Assembly (NCBI GenBank): GCA_033064195.1
Contig: JARBJD010000110.1
Span: 154,738-218,737 of the forward strand
Length of the DNA: 64,000 nt
Direction of reading: 5' to 3'
Source of the DNA: Blattamonas nauphoetae
Taxonomy: Eukaryota > Preaxostyla > Oxymonadida
A program made the translations under genes and the position numbers. The notes under the pieces were generated by a model. It saw nothing but the letters and a program-made list of their open reading frames with translations, was not told the origin of the DNA and searched no databases. How positions within the stretch are numbered: the stretch's first letter is position 1; each line of letters starts with the position of its first letter. This document shows positions 37,807-45,477 of this stretch, piece by piece.

Positions 37807-38713
37807 AATGTTGCTTGAAATATTGTTCTTGTTTTCTTTCTCTCTTACACCGATATTAGTGTCTTAACTCTTTCAGTTCTCTCTTCTTTAGCCAGCTCGT
37901 TGCCGTCTCTTCGTGAGAACCTTTTCGTACCTTTTATCCTCATCACATTCATGGAAATGAACTCCCTATTAATATCGGAGATAAATCTTCTTTCTTTGTT
38001 AGTCACCCAACAATCCGGGAGTAAATAACTATGCGGGAGTTTTTTTATGTGTCTCAAAAGTTGGGAGTAACCTTGGATTTTTAATTTTTTCGACAATTTT
38101 TCACTAGAAATAACATATTTATGAATAAATGAAGTGTCCTAGGTGGTTCAGAACAAATAGTTTTGATTACCCAGCACATATTTCTCATGACCTTGAAAAG
38201 TTGATCTCGTTGTATCTCCATAACCAGACAAAATTTTGACATGAAATTTTCGCGAAAATGAATGATTTGAGAAAAATAAACTTTTGACATTTCAAACTTT
38301 TTTTCGAAGGCACCAAAATCAAGGTTTTTCATCATTTTCAAGGAATGCTCCAAGAGTCTTCGGATTTGTCACTCACGATTCGCCTTTCATGCAAAATTGA
38401 TCATTTGAACTCGATTAGGACAGAGTTGACATCATTTGTAGGAATTTTGAAAACGAAATTCCCTTCTGATGCATAGCGAGAGAGCAATTTTGGGATGATG
38501 TCAAAATCAACACATTCTTTCTCGAGAGGTGGGGAAAAAAATTAAAAAGTTAAAATATCAAAAGTTTATTTTTCTCAAATCATTCATTTTCGCGAAAATT
38601 TCATGTCAAAATTTTGTCTGGTTATGGAGATACAACGAGATCAACTTTTCAAGGTCATGAGAAATATGTGCTGGGTAATCAAAACTATTTGTTCTGAACC
38701 ACCTAGGACACTT

Positions 38714-39197
38714 CGGCAAGGGTGGACTTTCTGGGCCAAAAAACTCTATGTAGTGGCAAAAAAGTTGTGCTCGGCGGGAGTCGAACCCCGAGCACAACAG
38801 TCGACAGAGGGGTTGGCTACCGCTAGGCCAAACGCGCCGCACGTTCACTTCCCAAAAATTGGTGTCTTGAAGGGAGAACTGCAGTAGATTGTCACTTCAC
38901 GATACATCATGATCAATCGCTATGTTTTGAAAAATTGTAAGAAAATTCGAGACATAAAGTTGAAATGAATCAAGAAAGCGTAAAGATGAAGTGATATAGT
39001 TCGCCGATCGACCTCATCAAACACGATCGAATGATCGTGACATTCTCTGAGACGATCTCGACAGTATTCTCAACATTTTGAAAAAAAAACGTGTTCACAT
39101 CCATATTCGACAATTTATTACGAGAGAATAGCCTCGATGAACTACAATGTCACAACACACCTCGATCACCTTTGGCCCAGAAAGTCCACTCGTGCCG
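38714..39197. mobile_element. Nested 484-bp TIR element with 6-bp target duplication
   Basis: Inserted into the right arm of the outer element. Its ends are inverted repeats of the form CGGCAnGnGTGGACTTTCTG, extending four more matched bases (GGCC). It is bounded by the direct duplication ACACTT at 38708-38713 and 39198-39203; removing one copy plus the element restores the outer arm exactly as seen in its partner. The interior holds a tRNA-like sequence and otherwise AT-rich noncoding DNA. A 6-bp duplication points to a superfamily other than mariner; which one is not clear. Confidence 0.88.
38776..38850 (-). other. tRNA-like sequence inside the nested element
   Basis: On the minus strand a box-A-like TGGCCTAGCGGTAGCC is followed about 35 bases later by a box-B-like GGGTTCGACTCCC, the internal promoter pattern of tRNA genes. 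The 3' part can form an alternative stem (GTGCTCGG with CCGAGCAC), and the acceptor ends do not pair well, so it is more likely a degenerate or tRNA-derived sequence than a functional tRNA. Confidence 0.55.
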
Positions 39198-40402
39198 ACA
39201 CTTCATTTATTCATAAATATGTTATTTCTAGTGAAAAATTGTCGAAAAAATTAAAAATCCAAGGTTACTCCCAACTTTTGAGACACATAAAAAAACTCCC
39301 GCATAGTTATTTACTCCCGGATTGTTGGGTGACTAGTCACTCATTGCAGAAATGGACGATTATCAACTTTTTCCTCGAGATTTCCATTGGAAAGCAGCTC
39401 GAGAACATTGATTTTGGTTCTTTGCATCCTTTTCATTTGAGTTTGACTATTTGTCCAGTATTCTCATTTCGTGCATTCTCACTATCACGTTAACTGTTCA
39501 GCCAGCCTTTCTTTGTGCATGATGCTCCATGAATGACTCGGAGTATGTGTGAGAAAATTTTTGAAAACTTGGGAGCGTACCCCTGCTCGTAAAAACGAAG
39601 TATCTCAGTTTTTTTGTGAACTTTGTGAATGAGGAGGACTCTGACTACATAAATCTGTGATTTTTTTCGGATAGATCATAAATCAAAAAAAGTGGTGAAA
39701 ACTAGATCTAAGTTACAAAACTGATTTCTATTCGAAACCTTCAACATATTATTCCTTTTTATTCAGAATAAATCCACCGATCGCTCAATATCATGACTAG
39801 AGAGTGAGAAAATGATAAGAGAAGAAAAGTGCGGTATTTCCTCTAGAGGCACCAAAACAAGTCATCAATCACCGAATGATGCTCATCCACAACTAATTAT
39901 CCACCAGACGAAAGTTTTTTATACGTGGTACGTCTGAAGTGGTCCGAACAAGTGGAACGTCAAAATGAAGAAGAAGACTACAATGATGAGTTATTCGATG
40001 GTGTTGATGCGTGTATTGTTCTCGTTTGGGTCTTCGTGCTGGGTGACTTGCCTCTTGACTTCTGCCTCTCGGTTGTGTGCCCACGGTCTTTAAAGGAGAG
40101 TGGTGAGAGAGTGAAAGCTGAAGAAAGAGGAGGGTTGGTGATTGCTCGCGATTGTCTGGCTGGAGTCCGGGCGATGTCGTTCTATTTCTCCCGTTTTGTC
40201 GGTAACAACCTTGCCTTCTTCACTGTTCATGTCTTTTGGATGTTTTTCTTCCTTTGTCCTTATCTTGTCGTCGATTTTCTCGATTGATTGTCCTTTCCCG
40301 CTCTTGTCGTGGCTCCCGTTGTCGGGTTCTGTTCCCTTTCCGTTTTCGCTCGGGGAGTTGGAGTGAGATTGATTGAGAAATAAATTAAATGAGTAGGGGA
40401 GT

Positions 40403-40697: not shown

Positions 40698-40770
40698 TGC
40701 CTCGGGCCGGTTTCGATCCAGCTACCTGCAGATCTTCAGTCTGACACTCTACCAATTGAGCTACCGAGGC
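40698..40770 (-). tRNA. tRNA-Phe (GAA)
   Basis: Minus strand: acceptor GCCTCGG pairs with CCGAGGC, D arm TAGCTCAATTGGTAGAGT, anticodon loop CTGAAGA with anticodon GAA, and T arm GCTGG-ATCGAAA-CCGGC. The length is 73 with discriminator A. The outermost pair of the anticodon stem is imperfect, but all other stems close and the A and B boxes are intact. No intron. Confidence 0.88.
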
Positions 40771-40985: not shown

Positions 40986-43900
40986 ATGAAGGACAGAACG
41001 ATGGAATCAGATCCACCCATAGACCATTTTTATTTTCACGGGCCCACTTTTGTGATGGAGGAAAACGGATTCCCTGAATCTCAAACTGAAATTATTCGCA
41101 CTGAACAGTCACTCGATGGATCTGATATCGTCGCCACTAAGCCGCGAAAGAATACGGAAGACAAACACAACTTTTGCTTCAATCTGTTCTTCTTCTTCTA
41201 TTATCCGTTCGTGTGCCGTTGCAAACCAATCACAAATGAGGATATCTTTGAATGTGGGAAGAAAGACAAGGTTTCATACAACATTCCGCGCAGTGGACAG
41301 CGATGGCTCAAAAAGCAGGAAGAATATCTGAACACTCGAGCTGAATGGGACCTGTCGGAACACCCGCCCATCGAGTCTGCTTTTTTCCACTTTATCCTTC
41401 CAGGAAGCCGCCGAAGCGGCCAAGCATCTTCAGCTACATTCTGTTCGAAGTGTCGAAGAGGTCGCTGGTTGTGAACGTCGCCTGGTATCTCTTCAGGTAT
41501 GAGACATCATCACTTGTAACTGTCACAGCAATGCACTGTATCTCATCATGCCTCTAATCATGAAACTATTACTACAGGACATTGCAGACAAGGACACCAA
41601 TCCCACATTCCCATTTGCCTCAGCAATCGTCCAGATTGTAATTCCATATATTCAAGGATTAGCTGATGGTATATGCTACCGTCTGTTTTACCATCGCACG
41701 TTGTCCGTGCGAGGGATGTTGTGTGCCTTCATCTTCGACAAGACAATGAAGCTCAATCTGAACACTCAGGGAGAAGTTGACTCGGGGCGTCTTCTGTCTC
41801 TGATCACTGCAGATACGCGGAATGTTGGAGATCTCTTTTGGCAGACCTATTTCATTCTGCTTCTTCCGTATCAAATCATCGTCCCATTAGTCTTCGTTCT
41901 CATCGATTTTGGGGCAACAGCTCTCATCTCGATTGCTGTCTGGATCGTCCTCATCCCAATATCGATGATTGCTACTTTTCTGATGGGTGTCGCGATGCAG
42001 AAGTACCTCGGGTCAAACGACGAGCGAAACAAGCTCATCAACGAAACCCTCCAGGGAATTCGAGTTGTGAAATACTCCGGCCTCGAAGATGTCTTCATCG
42101 ATCGGATAGAAAACAAGCGCAATATGCAAGTCAAAGCCTCTGTCGGGATGGCAACATGGCTCTACATTTCCTCTGCAATCATCCGCAGCATCCCAGCCTC
42201 TGTCAACATTTCAGTGATCTTCCTGCTCGTTGCCACTCGGGGACTTGATGAATCTGAGTTTGCAGTCTTCGTCATGCCTAATTTGGGTTTTCTGACGCTG
42301 ATGACAAGAGAGGCCACACAGCTTCCTTATTACATCCAATCCACGCAAATAACGGCGATATCAGCTGGACGTATTCGAGATTTCCTTCTTCTGCCGGAAA
42401 TGAAGATTGAGGAGCGGGCAGCACCTTCCGATGCGTCGCTTTCGATCACAATCGAAGGAGGCGAGTTCAAATGGGGAGAGGCACCTGAAGTTCCTCTCAC
42501 CGAAGCAGAACAAGCAGAGCTTGATGCAAGGAAGAAGGAGGAAGAAAAGAAATCCAAACAGAACAAGACGAAGACACCAACCGACGAACAAACTGAGATG
42601 GTTGATGAATACCCAACTGAGTCGACCAGGCTGTCCACATCTCCCTCCCCATCGCCCGCCCCCTCGTCCAAGAAACCTCGTGTCTCTGTCCTCACCGATA
42701 TCCACCTCCAAATCCCAACTGGTTCCCTCACAATGGTCGTGGGAGGTGTTGGAAGTGGCAAGTCATCTCTTGCCGCTGCTATCACTGGCGATGTCGAGCG
42801 TGTCAATGGAACAGTCTGCGTCAGAGGGTCAATCGCATTCTGCCCTCAGATTGCGTGGATCAACAACAGCACTGTTCGCGGCAACATCGTCTTTGGGATG
42901 CCATTCGATGAAACAAAGTATTCTGAAGTCATTCGCGTGTGTGCGTTGGAGAAAGACCTTCAAATGTTAGCAGCAGGTGATCAGACAGCGATCGGCGAGA
43001 AGGGAGTGAACCTGAGTGGAGGGCAGAAGGCACGCATCCAGCTTGCCCGTGCGGTGTACTCGGACAGAGACATTGTCGTGTTGGATGATCCACTCTCCGC
43101 TGTCGATGCGCATGTTGGGCGATTCCTGATCGACGAGTGCATGATGGGGAGACTGAAAGGAAAGACGATTGTGCTGATGACAAATCAGATCCAGTTTTTG
43201 GACAGAGCGGACAAGGTGGTGGCGTTGAAGGATGGAAAGATCATTGGACAGGGGAGATATGAGGAGCTGAGAGAGCAAGGGATCAATTTTGATGAATTCA
43301 TCATTCAGAGTGAGAAGAAAAACAAGCAGAAAAGGAAGGAAATGAAGGCAGATGATCAGAATGAGGAAACAGAGGAGGAACAGCAGAAAGAGCACGCTCC
43401 AACTGAAGAACTCCAACCATACTCCACTTCTAACACAACAGAAGAAGAAGAAGAAGAACTCAAGAAACTCGAACCAGTTGTTGCTCCCCAAGAGGATGTC
43501 GAGAACAAATCAAACAGTGATTATCTCGTCGCAAATGGGAACGAAAACGATCTCTCCTCGACAAACCAATCCTCATCCACTCCATCTCCCTCACCACCCA
43601 ACTCAGCCTCTCCCTTCGAAGACCAGGAAAAGGCAGAGAAGGCCGCTCGCCAGATGATGACAGAGGAAGAGCAGTCGACAGGTTCAATCTCCTTCAAAAC
43701 GTATTTCCGTTTAGTAGCCACAATGATGCCTGTCTGGCTTATTCCCTTTGCAATGCTTTTCGGAATCATTGTTGAGAGTATCACGTTGTTCCAAAGTTAC
43801 TGGCTGGGCGTCGTTCCTGAACCAACACTGTTCTTCCCTCTCTCATTCCACTGGAAACTGGGCATCTATGGACTCCTCACCATTCTGGCCATGATCTTTC

Positions 43901-45477
43901 TGATGCTGTACGCGTGTGTCGTCGGCTGCTCGATGCACCGCTCGAACAAAATCATCCATGACAAGCTCCTTCGCCACGTGATGCGCTGCCCGGTCTCGTT
44001 CTTCGACACAACCCCGCTCGGACGTGTAATCAATCGCTTTGGTGGAGATATCGCGCAGACTGACATGAACCTGGTCGTTCTGCTTTACGACGTCTATTTG
44101 ATGGCCATCGGGTTCGTCGGACAGATCGTGATTATCGCGATTTCCACTCCATCGTTTCTCGCCATCGGTCTTCCTATCCTTCTTCTCTTCGGAATCGTTC
44201 TTGTGTTGTATTCGAGAGCAGCGAGAGACCTCCAGCGACTCGACTCCATCTCTCGCTCGCCTGTTGTCTCCATCTTCTCCGAAGTGATTAACGGAGCCGG
44301 TCTCTCAACCATCCGAGCCTTCCATCAAGAAGATCGATGGAAGAAGCGATTTGAAGAGAAAGTGGACGACTGGACTGTGCGCACTCTGCTGTATTGGGAA
44401 GGGAAGAATTGGGGGACGACATACACCACGCTCATTGTGATGTTCTACATGGCTGGAGTGGTTCTCCTCGGCTGGTTCTTCATGAACCCTCCGCAGATGT
44501 CCGTCGCCCTCACATCCTCCCTCAACTTCAACATACTCGGGATCTTCCTCGTCATGCAGTTCGTCGACCTCGACTCAAAGATGACATGCTTCGAGCGTGT
44601 TCAATTCTATTCAACCAACCTTCCTCAGGAAACTTCAGTGAACTCCATCTCTCCACCGAAAGAATGGCCATCTGTTGGGAACGTCATTTTTGAGAACGTG
44701 ACGTTTCGCTACAGACCAGGCCTGCCTTTCGTGCTGCGGAATGTTTCGTTCGCTGTGAAAGGTGGAGAGACAATTGGAGTTTGTGGGAGAACAGGTGCTG
44801 GGAAGTCCTCTCTTCTGTTTGCGCTATTCAGACTGATTGAACTTGACCCATCACTCTCACCTCTCTCGATCGATGTGGACACTGGCATGCCAGTCCCTGT
44901 CGATCCCAACGAGGAGCCCAACTCAGGACGCGTTGTGATCGACGATGTGGACATCTCCAAAGTCCAAATCCAACGTGTTCGCCGCTCCATTGCGATTATC
45001 CCGCAAGACCCCACTCTCTTCACTGGAACTGTGCGATACAACCTCGACATTGCGGGGCAGTGCAGTGACGACCGCGTTTGGGAGGTGCTGGAGATGGTTG
45101 AGATGCGGTCTGTGGTGGCGTCGATGGCAGCTGGGCTGGACTCGGAAGTGGCTGAGGGCGGAAGCAACTTCTCGGCGGGACAGCGACAACTGTTGTGCTT
45201 TGGGAGGGCGATTCTGAACAACTGTCGGATCGTTGTGCTGGACGAAGCGACAGCGAGTGTCGATGTTGAAACAGATGCGAAGATCCAACGAACGATCCGA
45301 GAACAGTTCAGAGACAAGACAGTGATTGTGATTGCTCACAGACTGAACACGATTCTGGACTCTGATCGGATTCTGGTGATGGACAAGGGGACAGTTGCCG
45401 AGTTCGACACACCCGAGAATCTGAAGGCGAATCCAGACTCCACCTTCAATGGACTTCTCCACAGCCTCACACACTGA
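40986..45477 (+). CDS. ABC transporter, ABCC/MRP type (full-length, TMD1-NBD1-TMD2-NBD2)
   Basis: Three exons: 40986 to about 41363, about 41393-41495 and 41528-45477. The second intron (32 nt, with TGTAAC) splices WYLFS to NALYLIMPLIMKLLLQDIAD. The product is about 1470 residues. TMD1 is followed by NBD1 with Walker A GGVGSGKSSL, signature LSGGQKARIQLARAV and Walker B IVVLDDPLSAVD. After a long acidic/Ser linker comes TMD2 (SFFDTTPLGRVINRFGGDIA) and NBD2 with GRTGAGKSSLLFALF, FSAGQRQLLCFGRAIL and IVVLDEATASVD, then IAHRLNTI. NBD2 has the D-E catalytic pair, while NBD1 has D-D in place of D-E, the asymmetric ATP-site pattern of ABCC proteins. It exports organic anions or conjugates in known relatives; substrate and membrane are not predictable. 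Confidence 0.93.

Follow-up and report, generated by a model that had tools for sequence, protein, structure and literature searches.

A Merlin-like MITE family of Blattamonas nauphoetae with a near-invariant, tRNA-like left unit

We describe a family of short elements in the oxymonad Blattamonas nauphoetae that are bounded by terminal inverted repeats (TIRs) and carry a tRNA-like unit, here called the core, close to their left end. Whereas most of the remaining element has diverged through the family, the core has stayed nearly unchanged, a hint that it contributes to the spread of the element. The copy from which positions are given lies in a window, by which we mean the whole stretch of 64,000 nt that was analysed (contig C14, bases 154738–218737; GC content 44.6%). 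The assembly searched comprised 88,311,006 bases in 837 contigs.

Nested elements and their boundaries

As a sequence-only reading of the window had proposed, two TIR elements are nested, a TA-ended foldback element being interrupted by a second one. The features of this arrangement were as follows (window coordinates):

38000–39335, strand not assigned: outer TA-ended foldback element (arm identity and related copies)
38707–38714, plus strand: left target duplication GACACTTC, 8 bp (comparison of copies)
38715–39196, plus strand: inner TIR element, a Merlin-like MITE of 482 bp (78 full-length copies, 265 TIR ends in the genome)
38715–38740, plus strand: left TIR GGCAAGGGTGGACTTTCTGGGCCAAA (TIR comparison and genome copies)
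39171–39196, minus strand: right TIR GGCACGAGTGGACTTTCTGGGCCAAA (24 of 26 positions match the left TIR)
39197–39204, plus strand: right target duplication GACACTTC, 8 bp (comparison of copies)

The inner element begins GGCAAGGG. It had been correctly recognised as a TIR element, with a length of 484 bp that comparison of copies corrects to 482 bp. As the base preceding GGCA varies among copies, the terminal C formerly counted as part of the element is target DNA, and with this C assigned to the target the duplication becomes 8 bp (GACACTTC) in place of the 6-bp ACACTT. Likewise, the TIRs are 26 bp long with two mismatches, and not 24 bp. Among 78 full-length copies that were fetched, the target duplication was 8 bp in 71, a 9-bp match in five and 7 bp in one, and was missing in one; the duplicated sequences leaned to GAAAWTTS. 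The longest stop-free frame of the inner element was 60 codons, so that it carries no transposase.

Removal of 38715–39196 together with one copy of the 8-bp duplication left an outer element of 846 bp that starts TAGTCACCC and ends GGGTGACTA. Its arms were then identical over their first 288 positions, which bears out the earlier claim that excision restores the outer arm. When positions of the outer element were ranked by their fit to the GAAAWTTS-like target preference, the insertion site came 16th of 839. Two relatives of the outer element were found, one in contig C12 (a 99% copy) and a more distant one in locus L095 (83%). The C12 copy (loci L069, L015 and L016) carries an inner-type element of another cluster at the same 8-bp site of the right arm, in the opposite orientation to that of the window and with 91% identity over the left 370 bases. 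The opposite orientation and the modest identity make two independent insertions at this site probable. The nesting is the other way round in L095, where the outer-element relative lies inside an inner copy. Elsewhere in the window, positions 41503–45474 hold an uninterrupted 1324-codon frame with the membrane and ATPase domains of an ABC transporter.

Copies across the genome

The sequence-only reading had pointed to a genome search for further copies, and roughly 130 with matching TIRs were found. The TIR pattern, with up to three mismatches allowed, occurred at 265 places, 130 on one strand and 135 on the other, and the reversed control at none. Most full copies were 482 bp long. The family thus has the attributes of a MITE, in that it is short, non-coding and TIR-bounded, with numerous near-identical copies at one length. 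The 78 full-length copies fell into 12 sequence clusters, of which six were single copies.

The presence of the core was assessed in copies with an exact left TIR. There were 105 such ends in the genome, and 95 distinct copies could be read, the other 10 being unfetched or too short. The core was unchanged in 76 of the 95 and had one to seven differences in 12; in the remaining seven it was interrupted, shortened by deletion or placed beyond an insertion (two of these, L148 and L152, have internal deletions). A core with at most seven differences was thus read in 88 of the 95 copies, and it is no chance insertion in a single one. Searches of the genome with the two halves of the core gave 139 and 118 places and a search with the interior gave 135 (reversed controls, 0), numbers consistent with the 265 TIR ends, so that there is no large core-less population with the same interior. 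Loci L139 and L140, considered as core-less copies, proved on closer reading to contain ordinary copies.

Superfamily and source of transposase

According to the accessible text of PMC8101967, Merlin elements have 5'-GG ends, TIRs of 24–462 bp and target-site duplications (TSDs) of 8 or 9 bp; the oxymonad Monocercomonoides has more than 100 Merlin copies, most families having 23–29-bp TIRs and all having 8-bp TSDs. The inner element resembles these in its TIRs (GGCA[AC]G[GA]GTGGAC..., starting with GG, 26 bp) and in its TSDs, which were of 8 or 9 bp in 76 of the 78 full-length copies. On these features it likely belongs to the Merlin superfamily of IS1016/IS1595-type DNA transposons. It differs in having no transposase and in its internal tRNA-like unit, which goes unmentioned in the accessible text of that article.

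A search of the genome with the Pfam family PF12762 (DDE_Tnp_IS1595) gave 94 matches, 91 of them above the family cut-off. Inspection by eye of the listed TIR places (about 100 of the 265, and about 100 of the 105 exact left ends) revealed none within 3 kb of any of the 94 matches. No autonomous element with these TIRs was present among the copies and TIR places examined. Long loci taken up as candidates for one (L069, L070, L071, L072, L073 and L014) were ordinary copies with foreign insertions. The insertion in L069 is a TA-flanked element with pieces of a DDE_3-type transposase (Pfam PF13358); by eye, those in L070 and L073 are TA-flanked elements, and those in L071 and L072, flanked by 8-bp duplications, have ends of the TAGGCATGGGCAG and TAGGGATGAGCAAC types. 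No Pfam family matched a frame of 333 aa in L071.

Structure of the tRNA-like core

The A- and B-box-like sequences that had been noticed on the minus strand of the inner element are real, and a run of six T follows them. The core comprises the following features:

38767–38838, minus strand: tRNA-like core, element positions 53–124 (shared variant at 1 of 72 sites)
38820–38830, minus strand: A-box-like sequence TGGCCTAGCGG (pattern search)
38777–38787, minus strand: B box GGTTCGACTCC (the sole exact match to GGTTCGANTCC in the window)
38764–38798, minus strand: perfect inverted repeat with 11-bp arms, GTTGTGCTCGG / CCGAGCACAAC, which enclose the B box
38758–38763, minus strand: T6 run, a possible Pol III terminator (from sequence)

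On the minus strand the B box starts 43 nt past the A box and the T6 run lies another 13 nt on; the boxes and their spacing have tRNA-gene geometry. The whole arrangement occurred once in the window when both strands were searched. It was absent from 20,000 dinucleotide-preserving shuffles of the element, 34 of which contained the B box alone. As far as the sequence goes, the element thus has the internal Pol III promoter sequence typical of SINEs. For RNA from the core, folding predicted a 3' hairpin of 11 bp whose loop holds the B box (−21.4 kcal/mol); over 92 nt the stability of the fold was ordinary (z −1.45; 20 of 200 shuffles were equally stable).

With A and B boxes at tRNA spacing, the element could have captured a tRNA gene, as the sequence-only reading had suggested, yet neither ARAGORN nor covariance scoring called one. 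ARAGORN detected no tRNA in the element of the window, nor in any of the loci fetched. The cmscan tRNA model gave none for the core in the scan over the window, when the core was scanned closely at E values up to 5 and 10, or in 19 loci with whole or interrupted copies (the window's own copy being L001). A tRNA-Phe gene at 40698–40770 served as positive control and was found by both programs (60.3 bits with cmscan). The predicted hairpin is also unlike a cloverleaf, and we regard capture of a functional tRNA gene as extremely improbable. The nearest Rfam signal for the core was a sub-threshold tmRNA match of 13 nt on the B-box side (10.5 bits; cut-off 47), which might be what a B box alone would give. 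A genome-wide tRNA search, in which 63 of 4071 candidates were scored and 46 listed, missed the window's tRNA-Phe and is no test of the cores.

The tRNA-Phe (GAA) gene itself is on the minus strand, about 1.4 kb from the outer element. On contig C223 (471692–475579), tRNA genes occur as inverted pairs with starts 208 bp apart, and the pair itself is repeated.

Tail, variable TSD and absence of TIRs are the hallmarks of SINE retroposition, and tRNA-derived SINEs carry an A box, a B box and a run of T. The inner element shares the boxes and the T run with such SINEs. It differs from them in that its ends are TIRs, its TSD is 8 bp in nearly all copies, no tail was seen in it, and no free copies were present among the fetched loci. 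A tRNA-derived SINE may nevertheless have inserted into an ancestral MITE and been carried along since, an origin for which the boxes and T run would speak. When cores were taken with their flanks from the fetched loci and identical sequences were merged, 60 distinct ones remained. None of these was free-standing, all 60 having element sequence on at least one side, and by eye there was no poly-A or LINE-like tail beside the core. We consider such an insertion very unlikely.

Variation along the element

We estimated variation from the 73 copies that were full-length and had an exact left TIR, the full-length rule excluding copies with large indels. Because some loci had been fetched via the core, the set was defined by the left TIR, independently of the core, and the comparison covers positions 27–456. 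Variants shared by at least two copies occurred at one of the 72 core sites (53–124), where 26.8 would be expected at the density of the internal region (161–456; 110 of 296 sites). By segment, the number of sites with shared variants was 1 of 26 in the linker (27–52), 6 of 36 in 125–160, 51 of 140 in 161–300 and 59 of 156 in 301–456. The difference between the core and 161–456 (Fisher p about 1e-11) was also present when G/C and A/T sites were taken separately (p = 1.8e-7 and 8.7e-5), these p-values being a guide only since related copies are not independent. Among the 78 copies, cluster consensuses differed from that of the largest cluster at up to 68 of the 296 internal positions and at 0–1 of the 72 core positions. 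The core can mutate, as some copies carry changes in it (seven differences in L021, five in L034). Hence the nearly invariant left end, together with the core, is either under constraint or the product of a recent sweep. In the first case purifying selection would act on source copies; in both cases the left end would matter for spread.

The block of low variation is wider than the putative promoter. It includes the linker and part of 125–160, and a promoter alone does not explain why these are quiet. A serious rival to a Pol III reading is that the left subterminal 130–160 bp, with their 11-bp palindrome, form a platform bound by transposase or a host factor, the boxes being incidental or a relic. 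This would accommodate both the extension of the block beyond the core and the position of the B box inside a perfect inverted repeat. It is less easily reconciled with the right end, where 20-base averages revealed no comparably long low-variation block past the TIR, or with the failure of the shuffles to combine a perfect B box, an A box and a suitably placed T run. We rate the binding platform as unlikely, at a level well worth attention.

An equally serious rival, to which we assign a similarly small share of probability, is that recombination or gene conversion among copies carried one successful left end through the family, with the core as its passenger. Copies do recombine: 550 of 3403 site pairs failed the four-gamete test, and L060 is a mosaic whose 161–300 resembles one cluster and whose 301–456 resembles another. 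The left end and the interior may thus have separate histories, and a sweep of the left end could yield the same picture of variation. Positions 36–78 and 80–133 are free of shared variants, as a sweep would leave them. Singletons were also rarer in the core than in the internal region (2 of 72 sites versus 41 of 296, p = 0.007, 73 copies; 0 versus 15, p = 0.054, when the largest cluster with its 47 copies was taken alone), a scarcity not expected if selection acted on source copies alone. However, similarly placed exchanges would be needed in every one of the clusters, although their right parts differ greatly, and the old, decayed copies L132 and L134 keep a recognisable core with, by eye, two core changes in common.

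A possible role of the core in transposition

The reading that we put forward, tentatively and at slightly less than an even chance, is that of a Merlin-type MITE with a Pol III-like left unit that aids access of the transposase. The inner element would be non-autonomous, moved in trans by a Merlin transposase of the host and inserted with an 8-bp stagger at GAAAWTTS-like sites. Its left subterminal unit is laid out like a Pol III gene of type 2, with A box, B box in an 11-bp hairpin and T6. By recruiting TFIIIC and Pol III, this unit would give rise to a short transcript and keep the site open and unsilenced, so that there the ends of the element would stay accessible to the transposase; elements that had lost the unit would spread less. 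Given the boxes, recruitment of Pol III/TFIIIC is the most economical reading of the core. We hold it doubtful that a cut-and-paste transposon needs an internal Pol III promoter of tRNA type in order to spread, staying accessible or unsilenced by means of it, with promoter-less copies falling out of the spreading lineage.

Pol III promoters in mobile DNA are usually taken as a mark of SINEs. The present family indicates that tRNA-like boxes alone are insufficient to class a repeat as a SINE. If the proposed role were correct, a transposon would be exploiting the binding of TFIIIC and Pol III, which is otherwise associated with SINEs that retropose, and a low-variation Pol III-like unit in a DNA transposon would suggest that such a promoter can be selected for cut-and-paste spread. 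With its 12 clusters and about 130 copies, the family would offer a natural experiment on how binding of TFIIIC and Pol III affects a transposon. A literature search, whose coverage lay mostly outside subscription journals, found no TIR element with a tRNA-like unit. A repeat family associated with Pol III is CELE45 of Caenorhabditis elegans, a putative SINE of which 95% of active copies are Pol III-bound according to the accessible text of PMC8457455. The two are alike in that association (binding there, box sequences here); CELE45 is classed as a SINE and belongs to an unrelated host, and the likeness is one of description.

Other repeats associated with the family

Loci L149 and L151 were considered as a second family with the same end and were rejected, as a repeat of another family is inserted in them at position 35. 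The same repeat is present at the same position in L149, L151 and L155 (contigs C135, C395 and C576). It begins ATAGTGCCCGGATAAAC, and 40 matches to it were scored. Contig C576 may duplicate C135, as the five readable flanking bases of C135 agree. The shared position would reflect movement of the two as a composite, or else a preference of the inserted repeat for this site. In L155 and in L150 (contig C321), homopolymers are shorter than elsewhere, possibly through sequencing error.

Another B-box-like repeat, CCACCCGTGGCAGGTTTCGAACC, was found at 24 places with up to three mismatches (control, 0). Its loci include L080 (contig C48) and contig C512:54001–54023, and it lies about 90 bp from one inner copy. 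In L080, this repeat is joined to the core of the inner element near a short common TCGAACCC.
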